Shown here: piece after piece, positions 37 through 5,590 of the stretch
Layout of the letters: each line of letters opens with the position of its first letter
Position numbering within the stretch: the stretch's first letter is position 1
Origin: Gluconobacter sp. Gdi
GTDB lineage: Bacteria; Pseudomonadota; Alphaproteobacteria; Acetobacterales; Acetobacteraceae
Assembly (NCBI RefSeq): GCF_014132155.1
Contig: NZ_BLJQ01000002.1
Location: forward strand, 372,001-436,000
DNA: 64,000 bases
Direction: 5' to 3'
Position numbers and translations under genes: made by a program
The notes under the pieces: model-generated
Told to the model about the DNA's origin: nothing
The model's database searches: none
The model's input: the letters and a program-made list of their open reading frames with translations, nothing else

Positions 37-3000
37 TCAGGACAGAGCCATCGTGGTCAGATCGCCGCAGAATGCAGCCGTATTAACGGTCACGACGTGC
101 TCTTCCAGAAGCCATTCGGGGCGCAGACAATCCAACACATGAATGGGCACAATGCGCCCTTCGCGTGCTGTTAGGGTTGAGGCAGCTTGCAGCGCACGGG
201 GTGAGTGTCTTTCCATAATCATGACGGCGCATTCCGGCAAAGCTCCGGGGTCAACGCGCTGGATACGGTCAGCGAGTCCGGGGGAAAGGCGCTGCATCCA
301 GTCCAGTGCGTGATCTGGGCCAAGAACCAGAGCAGGGTTGCCGGTTCCCAGAGCCATACCGACAGCCCTGAGAATGGCAGGCCAGCTTTCGCCTGCGCAG
401 AGTACCGGACCACAGGGCTTGAGTGTCAGTGTGTTGGTCTCTCCAGCGGGGCCGGGCAGTGTCATTGAGAAGCCCGTCATGGCATGCGCAATATCCTGCC
501 GGATCTGGCGGGCTGAGACGGCATCCCGGCTCTCAAGAAACGTCACCAAACTTTGCGCATGGCGCGGGATACTACCCGGATTTGCATCTTTAGGCGCAAA
601 CCATGGGGATGTGCGGGCACTCATGCGGCGGAGGGCAAAAGGACCACCTGCCTTGGGGCCACAACCGGAAAGTCCGGATCCACCAAAAGGCTGTGAGCCA
701 ATAACTGCTCCTGTTATGGCCCGATTGACGTAGATGTTCCCCGCCTGAATGCGGTTAGTCGTGCGATCCACTGTCATGGCGACACGCGAATGAACGCCAA
801 AAGTCAAGCCGTACCCCATGGAATTTACAGCGTCGATCACGCCCTCCATTTCGTTGCGGTTGAAGCGACGCACATGCAGGACCGGCCCGAACACTTCATG
901 CGGAATATCGGCAACACGGCCGATTTCAATCAACGTCGGCGGAAGGAAATGGCCGTATCGACAGTTTTCACCCAGTTCGGGGGACCAGACCGTTCGGCCA
1001 GCCCGACGCATCATTTCAACATGATCCATCGCTTCCGTTCGAGCTTCCGGAGAGATAATTGGCCCGATATCCGTTGAAAGGCGTGCCGGATTCCCAATAG
1101 CCAGATCCTGAATCGCGCCCTTCAGAAGCTCAAGAACATGGTCTGCACAGTCTTCTTGAATCAATAGGATACGAAGAGACGAACAGCGTTGCCCCGCACT
1201 GTCAAAAGCAGAACTCAGAATATCCTGCACGACCTGTTCTGCATGCGCGGAGCTATCGACCAGCATTGCATTTTGTCCGCCCGTGCGCGCCACAAGAGGA
1301 ACAGGTGTGCCCGTGCGCCCCTGCCGGTCAAAGATCTGGCGTGAAACGGCTTTGCCAACGGGCGTTGAGCCGGTGAACATCACGGCATCGACCCGGTGAT
1401 CGGCTACCAGACGCTCTCCCACCGATCCATCGCCTGGCAAAAGGTGCAGAACTTCACGTGGAATCCCAGCTTCATGCAGAAGCTGAACGGTGCGGCTTGC
1501 AATAAACGGGGTTTGCTCGGCTGGCTTGGCCAAAACAACGTTTCCCGCTGCAAGAGAGACGGAAATCTGTTGCACGAACGCCGCCAGCGGGCTGCTCCAG
1601 GGACTGATACACGCAACAAGGCCGAGCGGTGAGGCTTGCAAATGATAATCCCGCCCTTGCAGGCGTTCCGCATCATGGCGAAGAATACTGACGGCCTCAC
1701 GGACTTCATCCTGAGCAGCCGGAAGAGTCTTTCCAGCTTCCCGTACCAGAAGCGCCATGAGCTCAATCCGGTGGGCTTCAATCAGATCAGCAGCTTTCAC
1801 CAAGCAGGCAATCCGCACTTCAGGGCTGCTGCCTGCCCAACTGGCAAGCGCATGTTCCGCTGTCTCCAGTGCAGACAGCAGTGTCTTTCCATCAGTCTCG
1901 ACAACGTCTCCGATCGGGTCATGTCGGTCTGCGGGGTTGTAGAGGAGACGGGAGCGGTCGTGCTGACGGGTGACACCCGGCGTCAGAGCGCGGGCGTGGA
2001 GGAAGGGCGCATCTCCATCGAGGGTTTCATGGAGGGCCCGAAGCGTCAGCTCATTGAAAAGATCGAGACCTGCCGCGTTGCGTCGCCCAGGCTGGAAAAT
2101 ATCTGAAGGTGCACGAACCGCACGATTAGGGCGCTCGGTTCTCAGAATGGCGCGTGTTGCCTCGACGGGGTCAGCCGTTAACGCTTCGATCGTAATGGCC
2201 GGATCTTCGTCGCGGCTGACAACGAGTGAGGCAGCTCCATTTTCCAGTAGCTGTCTGACGAAACTGGGCATGAGTGCCGCGACTTCCCCAATGGGAGCAT
2301 GTACCCGGCAGGGCAGGTTCATGCCCTGTTGGTTTCGGAGATGCTGCGCGAGGGCCAGCCCCAGCCCATGCAGGCATGCGAACTCGAAATCTCCCGGTCG
2401 AACCTGCCCTGCGAGCGCCAGAATATGACCAATAGTCCGCGGGTTATGGGTGGCAAACTGCGGGTAGGTGGCATCCAGCGATTCAAGAAGCTGTCGGGCG
2501 CAGGCGAGATAACTGACATCCGTGTGGCAACGGCGCGTGAAAACAGGGAAGTCAGCCAGTCCGGTTTTCTGGGCTTGTCGAATTTCCGAATTCCAGCAGG
2601 AGCCTTTGACCAGTCTGACAAGAACGCGGCGACCGGTGCGTCGGCCTAGATCAATAAGAAAATCTACGACAGTTGAAGCACGTCGATCATAGGTCTGGAC
2701 GGTCATGCCAAGCCCGTTCCAGTTCCCCAGTTCAGGCAACACACAGAGAGCCTCAAGCAGATCCAGCGTCAGCTCAAGATGCGTACTGTCTTCGCTGGAG
2801 AGCAGGATGCCGACATCCAGTTGCCGTGCCCGGATGGTAAGCCTTTGCAAGATCGGCAACAGCTCCGTCATGATCCGCTCGCGCCTGAAACGGCTGAATC
2901 GCGCGCTCAATGCGGGCAGACGTACATACAGCATCGGGCGGTCATGAAAGTCGCCGGTGATGCCCGCGTGTTGGCTGATATCTTCCAATGCGTCTTCATA

Positions 3001-3702
3001 GACGGTAAGGGCATCAAGGGCTTGATGAGCCGTCAGAGCGGTGTTGACCTGCGGATCATATGCATATGTCAGCCCATATTTTTCTGCAGGGGCGGACAGT
3101 CTCAGAGCCTGAGCCAGTGTAGAGCCCAGAATGAATCCGCTTCCTACGGCACGGATAGCTTTTTCCAGACTGCGACGAACCATGGGAGTAGATGTCTGAA
3201 GGGTTAGCCGACGAAGGCTGAACCCCTTGCTCTGGTTGAAACGCCCAGCAAGGGACAGGTTCAACGCAATCGAGTTCACAACCGACACACGGCGTTTACT
3301 GATATGCCGCCCCCAGTCGGTAGCTCCCACGAGAGAACGGATCAGCGCATCCTGAGTCGCAGAATCCGGAATGCGCAGGAGTGCCTCTTCCAGAGCCAGA
3401 ACAGATTGCCCTTCAGGTGAAGACAGAGGGAATGCCTGCAAAAGGCTCCCCACAATATCGGGCGAGGAGTCTCGTGCGGCCTCAGCAAGGCCGTGGGCTA
3501 TTCTGGTAGCTTGACGATCCTGCTCAGGTGTCAGGTCAGCACGCGGCAGCAGCGCGTCTACACATTCCGCCTCGGGGCGGTAGTGAGCAGCGGAAACAGC
3601 GTTGCGGAGCGGGGAGCGTGGTGCGCGTGAGAGTAGAAATTCCGCAAATGGCGCGGCGGGGCGTGAAGCCGGGTTCGTCGTCGGATGGGTCATGGAGTCC
3701 AT
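37..3702 (-). CDS. putA: PutA-like proline dehydrogenase / P5C dehydrogenase homologue, probably catalytically impaired
   Basis: Full-length homologue of the bifunctional flavoenzyme PutA (proline to glutamate), 1221 aa from the ATG at 3702; a start at 3780 would add 26 unlikely residues. A PRODH-like barrel spans about residues 180-510 (RLVKG and FATHN blocks) and an aldehyde dehydrogenase domain about 590-1040 (GQRCSS with Cys840, FGPVLHV, GPKAGGP). There is no obvious N-terminal ribbon-helix-helix DNA-binding domain. Compared from memory with E. coli PutA, key PRODH residues differ: K329 is Arg261, D370 is Ser302, Y437 is Cys369, Y540 is His468, Y552 is Ser480 and R556 is Gln484. In the dehydrogenase half the oxyanion Asn of PWNFP is Ser703 and the general-base Glu of ETGG is Arg806. 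The family is certain; proline oxidation is doubtful. Divergent from the gene at 4043. Confidence 0.9.
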   Translation of the reverse strand: MDSMTHPTTNPASRPAAPFAEFLLSRAPRSPLRNAVSAAHYRPEAECVDALLPRADLTPEQDRQATRIAHGLAEAARDSSPDIVGSLLQAFPLSSPEGQSVLALEEALLRIPDSATQDALIRSLVGATDWGRHISKRRVSVVNSIALNLSLAGRFNQSKGFSLRRLTLQTSTPMVRRSLEKAIRAVGSGFILGSTLAQALRLSAPAEKYGLTYAYDPQVNTALTAHQALDALTVYEDALEDISQHAGITGDFHDRPMLYVRLPALSARFSRFRRERIMTELLPILQRLTIRARQLDVGILLSSEDSTHLELTLDLLEALCVLPELGNWNGLGMTVQTYDRRASTVVDFLIDLGRRTGRRVLVRLVKGSCWNSEIRQAQKTGLADFPVFTRRCHTDVSYLACARQLLESLDATYPQFATHNPRTIGHILALAGQVRPGDFEFACLHGLGLALAQHLRNQQGMNLPCRVHAPIGEVAALMPSFVRQLLENGAASLVVSRDEDPAITIEALTADPVEATRAILRTERPNRAVRAPSDIFQPGRRNAAGLDLFNELTLRALHETLDGDAPFLHARALTPGVTRQHDRSRLLYNPADRHDPIGDVVETDGKTLLSALETAEHALASWAGSSPEVRIACLVKAADLIEAHRIELMALLVREAGKTLPAAQDEVREAVSILRHDAERLQGRDYHLQASPLGLVACISPWSSPLAAFVQQISVSLAAGNVVLAKPAEQTPFIASRTVQLLHEAGIPREVLHLLPGDGSVGERLVADHRVDAVMFTGSTPVGKAVSRQIFDRQGRTGTPVPLVARTGGQNAMLVDSSAHAEQVVQDILSSAFDSAGQRCSSLRILLIQEDCADHVLELLKGAIQDLAIGNPARLSTDIGPIISPEARTEAMDHVEMMRRAGRTVWSPELGENCRYGHFLPPTLIEIGRVADIPHEVFGPVLHVRRFNRNEMEGVIDAVNSMGYGLTFGVHSRVAMTVDRTTNRIQAGNIYVNRAITGAVIGSQPFGGSGLSGCGPKAGGPFALRRMSARTSPWFAPKDANPGSIPRHAQSLVTFLESRDAVSARQIRQDIAHAMTGFSMTLPGPAGETNTLTLKPCGPVLCAGESWPAILRAVGMALGTGNPALVLGPDHALDWMQRLSPGLADRIQRVDPGALPECAVMIMERHSPRALQAASTLTAREGRIVPIHVLDCLRPEWLLEEHVVTVNTAAFCGDLTTMALS

Positions 3703-4042
3703 TCCAGGCGGGTTAAAGCCCGGGGAGGCCTTTAAAACAGAATAGAAAGCGCTCTTAGCGCAACATCGTAGCCAAGACACCCAATGATTGATCTGAAATC
3801 GGATTTATTTCTGATCACAGCCTCTTTTTCAAACGCCCATAAGATGCACTGAGAAGCTGATTTTATAAATATTGGAAATATTTTCGGACTTGTAATGTCC
3901 AATTTGAAAAGAGAATTTCTTTTAAATTATTAATTTATTTAAATCGTATCAAAGATATGGTCTCAGAAACGATGTGATAAACGAATGGAGTTTGAGGAAT
4001 TCTTAAGAATTTCCTCTTACAGACAAAGGACGAGGAGTCGGA
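3703..4042. promoter_or_regulatory. AT-rich divergent intergenic region
   Basis: About 340 bp between the divergent PutA-like and TPR-glycosyltransferase genes. It is much more AT-rich than the surroundings, especially 3860-3960, and should hold both promoters. No tRNA or small ORF with a convincing ribosome site was seen. An imperfect inverted repeat (GAGGAA ... TTCCTC around an AAGAA/TTCTT core) lies at 3994-4016, just ahead of the GAGGAG ribosome site of the gene at 4043. It could be an operator or a leader hairpin. Confidence 0.5.
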
Positions 4043-5590
4043 ATGACCACACTTTCCCCCAGCCCCTGTCTGCTTACACGTCGTACCTTCACAGAATATT
4101 TGCGAGTAGCAGTCGGTCTGGAAGAAGTGGGGCAGCGTGAGAGTGCTATCGACGTTCTGCGAGAGGCAGAAACGCTTCTGCCAGAAAGGCCCGAAAGTCT
4201 TTTTCTTCTTGGTGGCGTTTATGAGCGTCTTCAGTGCTGGGAAAAGGCATCCCTGTTCTATAGCAAGGCCCTCGAAGCGAGGCCTCATGCGGCAAGGGTC
4301 TGGCATCGACTGGGCATTGCCCTGCTCCATCAGGATGATCTGGGAGGGTCTATTAAAGCTCTGGAAACTGCCGTGCAGCAGGACCCGGCTATTCCTGAGT
4401 ACGCTACCGACCTGAGTATGGTTCTCTCACGCGACGGACAGTTTGAAGCGGCGCTGGGTTTCGCGCAGTCTGCTTTGAAAATGCAGCCTGATGATGCAAA
4501 TGCTCTCAATAACGCCGGGCATATTCTCCAATGTTTGAACCGCTCTGCAGAAGCCTTGCAGTTCTACGATGCTGCGCTTCAACGGTCTCCTGATCATCCC
4601 GTTATCCGTTTTGGCCGTGCGACGGCTCTGCTGAAATCGGGTGATTTTCTTCTAGGATGGCAGGAATACGAAAGCCGTTGGCTCTCTTCGAGAACAGTCA
4701 GGGCTGATATCGACGCGCCAGTCTGGGAAGGGGAATCCCTGAAGGGGTGCACCATTCTTGTTCATCACGAACAGGGATATGGAGACACACTGCATTTCAT
4801 CCGCCTAATGCCGATACTGGCCCAGCGGGGTGCAGAAGTTGTGGTGCAGGTTCCCGTCCCTCTGGTGCGGCTTGTTCAGCGTGTAGCTGGCGTATCTCGA
4901 GTAGTCTCGGTTCTCGATCCTACCGATCACTTTGACTATCACTGCCCGATGATGAGCCTTCCGGTAAGGCTTGGACTGACGGCAGAGTTTGTTGGACAGT
5001 TTCCCTATCTGTCTGTGTCAGAAGACGACATGGCAGCGCAGGGCAGTAAGCTTCGCCTTCAGGTTCAAAGCTCCCGTCAGACGCCGAATTTCATCGTGGG
5101 GCTCGTTTGGAGCGGAGACCCGAGACCCCATGATCTTCGCGCTACACAGACGGATCGCCGCCGCAGCATAACATTAAGCACGTTGGCGCCTTTGTTTTCG
5201 GTGGAAGGCGTGCGCTTTGTCAGTTTCCAGATGGGAGCAGCCCGTCATCAAGTTGCTGAAACCGGATTGCCGCTGGTTGATGGGACGGAGAATATTCTCG
5301 ATTTTACTGATACCGCTGCCCGACTCTCAGGTGTGGATCTTCTGATTACGGTGGATACGTCCATGGCTCATCTGGCGGGTGGGCTGGGCAAACCTGTCTG
5401 GATGCTGTCACGCTCTGACGCTTGCTGGCGTTGGGGAGATGCAGGCACTCAGACCGCTTGGTATCCGGATATGCGAATTTTCCGTCAGCCTGTGGCAGGA
5501 GATTGGGGGAGTGTGGTTGACGATGTCCGGCTCACTCTTGTCCAGCTCATGGATTTGTATCGCGGCTATCAGCATGAGTCCGGCGAATAG
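4043..5590 (+). CDS. TPR-repeat protein with C-terminal glycosyltransferase-9-like domain
   Basis: 515 aa, with no signal peptide, so probably cytoplasmic. The N-terminal ~210 residues are tetratricopeptide repeats (helical pairs with alternating small and aromatic residues, e.g. the NNAGHILQ and FGRATALLKSGD segments). Residues ~235-500 resemble the heptosyltransferase-like GT9 fold, including HHEQGYGDTLHFIR near the start of the domain and a late TVDTSMAHLAGGLGKPVW block typical of the nucleotide-sugar site. TPR-GT9 fusions of this kind are common in acetic acid bacteria and other alphaproteobacteria and may act on surface glycans or flagellin; the acceptor here is unknown. The ATG follows a good GAGGAG site. 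A strong bidirectional terminator separates it from infC. Confidence 0.8.
   Translation: MTTLSPSPCLLTRRTFTEYLRVAVGLEEVGQRESAIDVLREAETLLPERPESLFLLGGVYERLQCWEKASLFYSKALEARPHAARVWHRLGIALLHQDDLGGSIKALETAVQQDPAIPEYATDLSMVLSRDGQFEAALGFAQSALKMQPDDANALNNAGHILQCLNRSAEALQFYDAALQRSPDHPVIRFGRATALLKSGDFLLGWQEYESRWLSSRTVRADIDAPVWEGESLKGCTILVHHEQGYGDTLHFIRLMPILAQRGAEVVVQVPVPLVRLVQRVAGVSRVVSVLDPTDHFDYHCPMMSLPVRLGLTAEFVGQFPYLSVSEDDMAAQGSKLRLQVQSSRQTPNFIVGLVWSGDPRPHDLRATQTDRRRSITLSTLAPLFSVEGVRFVSFQMGAARHQVAETGLPLVDGTENILDFTDTAARLSGVDLLITVDTSMAHLAGGLGKPVWMLSRSDACWRWGDAGTQTAWYPDMRIFRQPVAGDWGSVVDDVRLTLVQLMDLYRGYQHESGE

Follow-up and report, generated by a model that had tools for sequence, protein, structure and literature searches.

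A second PutA of Gluconobacter with both active sites replaced appears to be kept by selection, most strictly in its C-terminal domain

The bifunctional enzyme PutA, which channels its substrate, has been studied in depth, and a ribbon-helix-helix domain at the N-terminus is the mark of the trifunctional PutA, which is a DNA-binding repressor as well. The C-terminal domain (CTD) of PutA is reportedly called a domain of unknown function in the title of Luo et al. 2016, and a 2016 study is said to have described it as a tunnel-sealing adapter. Here we describe a PutA-like gene, putA2, in a 64,000-nucleotide stretch of the genome of Gluconobacter sp. Gdi (close to G. cerinus; contig NZ_BLJQ01000002.1, positions 372,001 to 436,000; hereafter the window). 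Its product, PutA2, has the full architecture of the family, and the residues of both active sites are replaced. Judging from the sequences, we lean towards the view that PutA2 is a second PutA, inherited vertically, in which both canonical activities (proline to 1-pyrroline-5-carboxylate, P5C, and glutamate semialdehyde to glutamate) are lost and which selection has kept as a non-catalytic scaffold or regulatory partner.

The best relative of PutA2 with a solved structure is SmPutA of S. meliloti (PDB 5KF6; 958 bits over residues 6-1220). Like SmPutA and like the canonical PutA of its own genome (L002; the PutA2 of the window is the query, L001, and other loci and genomes carry L and G numbers), PutA2 possesses the whole architecture including the C-terminal domain, whereas its active sites, ion-pair gate, tunnel and C-terminal lid are replaced and its domain constraint is inverted. 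ALDH16A1 is not a PutA and has no proline-dehydrogenase half. Like PutA2, this human protein is a maintained member of the aldehyde dehydrogenase (ALDH) superfamily without a catalytic triad, and it is reported to be protein-interacting (PMC10650815), whereas Gluconobacter PutA2 keeps the Cys. The trypanosome AdoMetDC prozyme is a catalytically dead paralogue kept beside an active relative, with the heterodimer as a model mechanism (PMC6221367); for the prozyme this heterodimer has been reported, whereas PutA2 is known here from co-occurrence with a canonical copy in 11/11 genomes. The PutA of Ralstonia solanacearum likewise has a second, regulatory role, influenced by flavin adenine dinucleotide (FAD) and nicotinamide adenine dinucleotide (NAD) (PMC9132996), but it is catalytic and DNA-binding, whereas PutA2 has only the family Pro_dh-DNA_bdg match in Pfam. 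Pseudoenzymes as a class are well known, also within the ALDH superfamily (ALDH16A1). The PutA case appears to be new: among the matches listed in the open-licence literature, none deals with a PutA pseudoenzyme or with this gene of Gluconobacter.

The reading frame of putA2 is free of stops over 1221 aa. An earlier note, made from the letters of the window alone, had claimed the full PutA architecture without a frameshift, and this is confirmed; the note gave no strand, and the frame lies on the minus strand. The gene and its parts are:

37..3702, minus strand: putA2, full-length PutA-like open reading frame of 1221 aa, with an alternative start at 3693
2218..3093, minus strand: proline-dehydrogenase (Pro_dh) barrel, residues 204-495 (Pfam), its constraint relaxed
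619..1947, minus strand: Aldedh module, residues 586-1028 (Pfam and alignment), scaffold and NAD motifs retained
94..618 (approximate), minus strand: CTD, an ALDH-superfamily domain, residues ~1029-1203, the best-conserved domain of PutA2
40..93 (approximate), minus strand: C-terminal tail, the tunnel lid in catalytic PutA, degenerate in PutA2

Pfam matches PutA2 with PRODH, Pro_dh-DNA_bdg, Pro_dh and Aldedh. Full-length homology, the PRODH/Pro_dh/Aldedh order and its place in the PutA tree identify it as a PutA by descent, and it scores 1019.2 bits against NCBIfam NF008869 (bifunctional PutA; cut-off 747). A DNA-binding repressor of the PutA type was rejected, since the Pfam search at E 0.001 found no N-terminal ribbon-helix-helix DNA-binding domain and the match to NF008772 (1154.6 bits) is under the cut-off of 1750.

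Active-site residues were read from an alignment of PutA2 with E. coli K-12 PutA (from NC_000913) and 60 further PutA rows, and the numbering of the SmPutA sites was taken from PMC11596857 and PMC12398946:

2920..2922, minus strand: Arg261, for Lys329 (E. coli) or Lys265 (SmPutA)
2797..2799, minus strand: Ser302, for Asp370 or Asp306 (SmPutA)
2596..2598, minus strand: Cys369, for Tyr437 or Tyr373 (SmPutA)
2299..2301, minus strand: His468, for Tyr540 or Tyr473 (SmPutA)
2263..2265, minus strand: Ser480, for Tyr552 or Tyr485 (SmPutA)
2251..2253, minus strand: Gln484, for Arg556 or Arg489 (SmPutA)
1591..1596, minus strand: Ser703-Ser704, for the oxyanion Asn779 (Asn707 in SmPutA) and the aromatic-box Phe780 (Phe708 in SmPutA)
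1285..1287, minus strand: Arg806, for the general-base Glu883 (Glu810 in SmPutA)
1183..1185, minus strand: Cys840, retained (Cys917 in E. coli, Cys844 in SmPutA)

The eight substitutions that the earlier note had listed (six in the proline site, Ser703 and Arg806) and the kept Cys840 each stand at the residue given when compared with E. coli PutA, and the exact motif spacing it relied on recurs in the alignment with E. coli PutA and the further PutA rows. Misalignment, with canonical residues in shifted positions, is ruled out by the alignments and the SmPutA match. In SmPutA numbering, 6/7 proline-site residues of L001 are replaced (Lys265, Asp306, Tyr373, Tyr473, Tyr485 and Arg489; Arg488 is kept), and in its glutamate semialdehyde dehydrogenase (GSALDH) site Asn707 is Ser, Glu810 is Arg and Cys844 is kept. 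All seven proline-site residues are present in each of the 53 canonical rows, which read K, D, Y, Y, Y, R, R, N, E and C at the catalytic sites. Because these columns never vary there, the changes in PutA2 are not ordinary variation. By definition, a pseudoenzyme lacks conserved catalytic motifs in its sequence (PMC10211241), and PutA2 lacks them.

PutA is present in 26/26 Gluconobacter genomes, and 11 of them possess PutA2 as a second copy, in every case without an internal stop and 52-100% identical to the query. Both active sites are replaced in 10/11. The eleventh copy (L013, genome G025) keeps all the proline-site residues checked, but its general-base Glu is replaced by Gln and Gly-Gly by Ser-Ala, which suggests a half-dead intermediate in which the ALDH half was lost first. 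A PutA that is canonical at the positions checked accompanies PutA2 in 11/11 genomes. The earlier note had advised looking for a catalytic putA elsewhere in the genome, and L002 was found, canonical at each position checked and 43-45% identical to PutA2; additional proline dehydrogenases were rejected, as this 3.55-Mb genome has two Pro_dh matches in all.

The replacements are concentrated at the sites of catalysis. Taking the columns that are invariant in canonical rows, we counted those changed in all ten fully altered Gluconobacter copies (L013 excluded): 6/8 PRODH substrate or catalytic columns against 16/88 others (Fisher p 0.0016), 3/7 ALDH substrate or catalytic columns against 4/115 others (p 0.0037), and 0/7 and 0/6 for the FAD and NAD sets, zeros that alone are not significant (p 0.6 and 1). 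The columns taken as FAD and NAD contacts are retained in PutA2 together with Cys844 (SmPutA numbering). Six of the seven NAD columns and three of the seven FAD columns are invariant across the ten copies; the barrel FAD columns R431, G435 and W438 are retained in 11/11 rows, and some FAD columns are altered in single rows (Asn404, His434 and Glu487 in L012). The Glu of the ion-pair gate (E289 in E. coli, E225 in SmPutA) is N in PutA2, and the tunnel residues E373 (Glu309 in SmPutA) and R376 (Arg312 in SmPutA) are D and H. The last 18 residues belong to what in SmPutA is the C-terminal tunnel lid (PMC12398946); here 4/18 columns are invariant in ten PutA2 against 14/18 in ten catalytic copies. 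L001 thus lacks the features of a channelling tunnel (gate Glu225, Glu309, Arg312 and the lid). The earlier note had offered a substrate channel as one possible role, which the loss of residues in gate, tunnel and lid makes unlikely. As far as the aligned columns can tell, cofactor motifs are mostly retained, whereas catalytic, tunnel and lid residues are not.

The ratio of non-synonymous to synonymous substitution rates (dN/dS) was estimated by Nei-Gojobori for nine PutA2 pairs, in four of which dS is >1.4 and dN/dS unreliable. Four Gluconobacter pairs with dS <0.8 give 0.024, 0.065, 0.043 and 0.064, and their catalytic counterparts from the same species 0.083, 0.065, 0.039 and 0.059; two Asaia pairs give 0.072 and 0.111 against 0.104 and 0.078 for the catalytic copies. 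Over seven Gluconobacter pairs, three with saturated dS, PutA2 ranges from 0.024 to 0.072. Because all these pairs lie among the ten fully altered copies, the values reflect, by parsimony, the time after catalytic loss. The dN/dS comparison that the earlier note suggested places PutA2 in the range of the catalytic copy; with 11/11 copies stop-free and a catalytic putA elsewhere, its notion of a maintained pseudoenzyme holds at the level of sequence, dN/dS and domain rates alike pointing to upkeep by selection after the motifs were lost. A side observation concerns the pair L014 and L017, where dS is 0.23 in the CTD and 0.69 over the whole gene, possibly through recombination.

The constraint on the domains is inverted. 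In catalytic groups PRODH is the most and the CTD the least conserved domain, whereas in both altered lineages (that of Gluconobacter and the Asaia-type lineage treated below) the CTD is the most conserved. Tree-length ratios of PutA2 to catalytic copies of the same species were obtained on a fixed topology of our own writing for ten Gluconobacter, two subsets of four species and five of the nine Asaia genomes, given here in that order; the ten Gluconobacter have PutA2 together with a type-B catalytic copy, which includes L013 but not G011, where PutA2 is accompanied by a type-A copy. The ratios are 0.44, 0.42, 0.34 and 0.21 for the CTD, 2.49, 1.88, 1.02 and 4.20 for PRODH, and 1.15, 0.69, 0.79 and 0.89 for ALDH; the N-terminal part gives 1.24, 1.99, 0.76 and 1.86, and the entire protein 1.26, 0.99, 0.74 and 1.20. 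Moreover, the dN/dS of the CTD is lower in PutA2 than in the catalytic copy in 7/7 species pairs with both values defined, of nine.

Invariant columns tell the same for ten PutA2 (L013 left out) and ten catalytic rows with nine species in common (G025 replaces G011); frameshifted G071 pieces and Asaia fragments were left out before the counts, and the shorter G089 forms (L181, L184) from the column counts. Among the PutA2 rows the CTD leads (80/173, 0.46), followed by ALDH (174/465, 0.37), PRODH (86/345, 0.25) and the N-terminal part (0.22), and among the catalytic rows PRODH (207/340, 0.61), followed by ALDH (226/453, 0.50), the N-terminal part (0.46) and the CTD (36/165, 0.22). The lid, with its 4/18 invariant columns, is the exception at the C-terminal end of PutA2. 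Mean identities in the altered lineage of Asaia and g9, another genus, are 84 for the CTD, 77 for ALDH, 69 for the N-terminal part and 60 for PRODH, against 56, 75, 81 and 86, respectively, in the type-B copies of G050, Asaia and g9. The CTD/ALDH distance ratio spans 0.62-0.98 in one altered lineage and 0.56-0.80 in the other; it is 1.26-1.46 for intact PutA2 and 1.03-1.31 for type A, with three pairs each, and 1.19-3.27 for the remaining catalytic groups. Altered and catalytic groups do not overlap, with type A coming close. Columns that do not vary across the 18 PutA2 rows (11 from Gluconobacter, L013 among them, and seven from Asaia and g9) and are below 90% in 52 canonical rows number 47/173 in the CTD, 10/345 in PRODH, 32/465 in ALDH and 1/161 in the N-terminal part. 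Because 36 of the 47 CTD columns are common to all three intact PutA2 rows, much of this signature predates the catalytic loss.

In a quick PutA tree of 49 rows with Shimodaira-Hasegawa-like approximate likelihood-ratio (SH-aLRT) support only, the 11 Gluconobacter PutA2 form one clade (support 100) with L013 branching first. The next branch is the Asaia-type clade, to which the frameshifted copy of G071 belongs (97), followed by intact copies from G050 and G047 (90) and from G073. The flanks of these loci include a gene with tetratricopeptide repeats (TPR):

4043..5590, plus strand: divergent TPR-repeat gene, adjoining putA2

This gene stands beside putA2 in 6/11 Gluconobacter loci and beside the intact putA2 of G050, G047 and G073, which represent three sister genera; in the other 5/11 it is not adjacent and the left-hand genes are in common. 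The other flank of the G047 locus is common to the Asaia-type copies, and from these shared flanks we read all putA2 loci as one ancestral locus. In G047 and G073 the intact PutA2-type copy is the sole PutA match at the cut-off among the matches listed in our family survey, for which 299 genomes were drawn evenly out of a larger group, and G050 has two intact PutA copies. Altered copies are found only alongside another PutA, in a sample that is small and confounded by phylogeny.

Five Asaia copies (L059-L063) have Ser for the catalytic Cys, Asp for the Glu and Leu or Met for Tyr540, and the copies of G320 and G033 (other genus, g9) agree. Over these seven, Lys329 is replaced in 6/7 and Tyr540 in 7/7, and Asp370 and Arg556 are kept in 7/7. 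The ALDH set is enriched for change in this lineage too (3/7 against 5/115, p 0.0058). Since the residues differ and L013 still has its proline site, the Gluconobacter and Asaia-type lineages were altered independently; a single common loss was rejected on the same two grounds. The order of the losses is uncertain, because a ThrS tree puts G025 beside the type-A clade and the PutA2 tree puts it first. The canonical partner passes the motif check in 8/9 Asaia genomes and in G033, that of G319 being a 690-aa piece only. The Asaia bogorensis genome paper names Asbog_00494 and Asbog_02561 as proline dehydrogenases (PMC4596401), and from genome position we infer that one of the two is the altered PutA2 copy. 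Automatic naming misleads, because PutA2 passes the NF008869 cut-off and an altered Asaia copy is, on this inference, listed as a proline dehydrogenase.

These observations bear on the reading towards which we lean, that of PutA2 as a non-catalytic scaffold or regulatory partner. In its favour are the full architecture, the replacement of both sites, strong purifying selection after the loss and a catalytic partner gene in 11/11 Gluconobacter genomes. PutA2 would stay folded, probably bind its cofactors, and work as a scaffold or regulatory subunit through the ALDH module and above all the CTD. It may form a hetero-assembly with its first candidate partner, the catalytic PutA, or tether another partner, and the proline-dehydrogenase pocket and the channelling tunnel would have been freed from their former constraint. 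Its preservation, above all in the CTD, points to a job other than proline breakdown. It is possible, and we propose it tentatively, that the CTD has a second function independent of catalysis and tunnel sealing: another PutA would have taken over proline oxidation, the putA2 locus would have lost ALDH chemistry twice (in Gluconobacter, and in Asaia with g9) and proline oxidation at least once, and selection would have kept and sharpened the CTD. Tunnel sealing cannot explain a tighter constraint on the CTD where the tunnel residues are gone. With both sites and the tunnel lost and the CTD best conserved, PutA2 is a natural separation-of-function experiment on this domain and makes the question of its function experimentally approachable.

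Several points weigh against a non-catalytic partner. The expression, folding, cofactor binding and partner of PutA2 are all predictions from sequence, and the partnership with the catalytic copy is co-occurrence alone, confounded by phylogeny; G008 retains a type-B catalytic PutA without PutA2. One subset (G003, G019, G021 and G023) displays no relaxation of PRODH (ratio 1.02). The three intact PutA2 rows already have a more constrained CTD (CTD/ALDH distance ratio 1.35, compared with 2.09-2.49 for three catalytic groups), and type A, a shallow group, stands at 1.18. In Asaia changes are no commoner at proline-site columns than elsewhere (1/8 against 12/88, p 1), and this lineage therefore supports the ALDH half only; its putA2 is whole in 6/9 genomes and in pieces in 3/9. 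Finally, the new pocket residues R261, H468, S704 and R806 are fixed, Cys840 is kept in 11/11, and 4/7 ALDH catalytic or substrate columns are invariant in ten PutA2 (the ALDH average being 0.37), which a pure scaffold would not need.

These last points lead to the main rival reading, a new enzymatic activity, in which the sites of PutA2 were rebuilt for another substrate, for example by an ALDH-type reaction through Cys840 and NAD or a new reaction of the FAD barrel. We regard such a repurposed enzyme as unlikely, though with a real claim to attention. The Cys (Cys917) in all 11 Gluconobacter rows, the kept NAD motifs and the fixation of K329R, Y540H, F780S and E883R in 10/10 fit it, and the active site of human ALDH18A1 retains the catalytic Cys alone (PMC10650815). 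However, the substrate anchors vary among the ten PutA2 (Arg916 is R, N, H or S; Ser918 is S or G; Tyr437 is A, C or S; Tyr552 is A, C, G, R or S), the PRODH substrate and gate columns are invariant in 2/8, the barrel's average share (0.25), and PRODH is relaxed rather than constrained in 3/4 species sets. Moreover, each Asaia gene piece covering the site has Ser for Cys, which excludes one Cys-dependent activity common to both lineages.

That PutA2, its site altered, can still act to some extent on proline or P5C seems improbable to us. The barrel FAD columns R431, G435 and W438 in 11/11 rows, Arg488 (SmPutA) in L001, the whole proline site of L013 and the Asp370 and Arg556 of the Asaia-type copies would suit it, but L001 lacks Asp306, Tyr373, Tyr473, Tyr485 and Arg489 and has Arg for Lys265 (SmPutA numbering), and the oxyanion Asn and general-base Glu are both missing in the ten Gluconobacter copies. 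In SmPutA a Cys-to-Ser change alone disables GSALDH (PMC12398946), and the Asaia copies carry this Ser naturally.

We give still less credence to a duplicate on its way to a pseudogene. PutA2 is absent from 15/26 Gluconobacter genomes, for which the ThrS tree implies two or more losses, it is in pieces in 3/9 Asaia genomes and in G071, and the Asaia pairs have dN/dS of 0.072 and 0.111. Against this, the 11 Gluconobacter copies are stop-free down to ~52% identity to the query, and neutral decay would give a dN/dS near 1 and equal rates among domains, whereas dN/dS is 0.024-0.072 (seven pairs, three saturated) and the CTD evolves at 0.21-0.44 of the catalytic rate; for Gluconobacter, neutral decay was rejected on the intact reading frames, the low dN/dS and the slow CTD. 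An alignment or sequencing artefact has next to no chance, given the exact motif spacing and the replacement of both sites in G. cerinus and eight other genomes as well.

The Asaia pieces number two or three in each genome (L173 and L177 in G318; L166 and L176 in G319; L174, L188 and L187 in G305), and sequencing error is possible for them because completeness is only 85-88% for two of the assemblies. In the three fragmented copies the piece covering the site has Ser for Cys, and L166 ends before the site. The putA2 of G071 (L090, L178 and L185; G071:C1:1856665-1860263) has canonical residues in its longer part, its two frames being split near residue 340.

The 15 Gluconobacter genomes without PutA2 comprise 14 with a canonical copy of type A and G008 with one of type B, and on the ThrS tree the presence pattern of PutA2 requires two changes. 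At six empty sites (G008 and 5/14 type-A genomes) tblastn found no remnant of putA2, and the TPR and left-hand genes are present. The neighbouring genes scanned (response regulator, histidine kinase, SIMPL, TPR and genes without a Pfam match) gave no functional hint. One further element lies directly upstream of the gene:

3703..3733, minus strand: 31-bp leader just upstream of the putA2 start, identical in four genomes

The block is identical at the window, L008/L037, L009 and L010, which form two pairs with largely different intergenic sequence outside it. Its own genome contains it once (<=3 mismatches allowed), within a near-palindrome (TTAAAGGCC...GGGCTTTAA), and its RNA fold is not significant (z -0.85). 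Since G007 and G022 have an in-frame stop within it, the block is probably not coding sequence but a leader or operator. In these two genomes an in-frame TAA, read by eye, lies just upstream of the ATG equivalent to 3693, and the true start of putA2 may be this second ATG. Two minor observations concern the flanking and marker genes: a second ThrS-like gene, with 53-55% identity to the ThrS of the window, is found in 8/26 Gluconobacter (G002, G004, G006, G010, G012, G016, G017 and G020), and a TAG occurs within the matches L152 (thrS of G011) and L108 (the TPR gene of G012).

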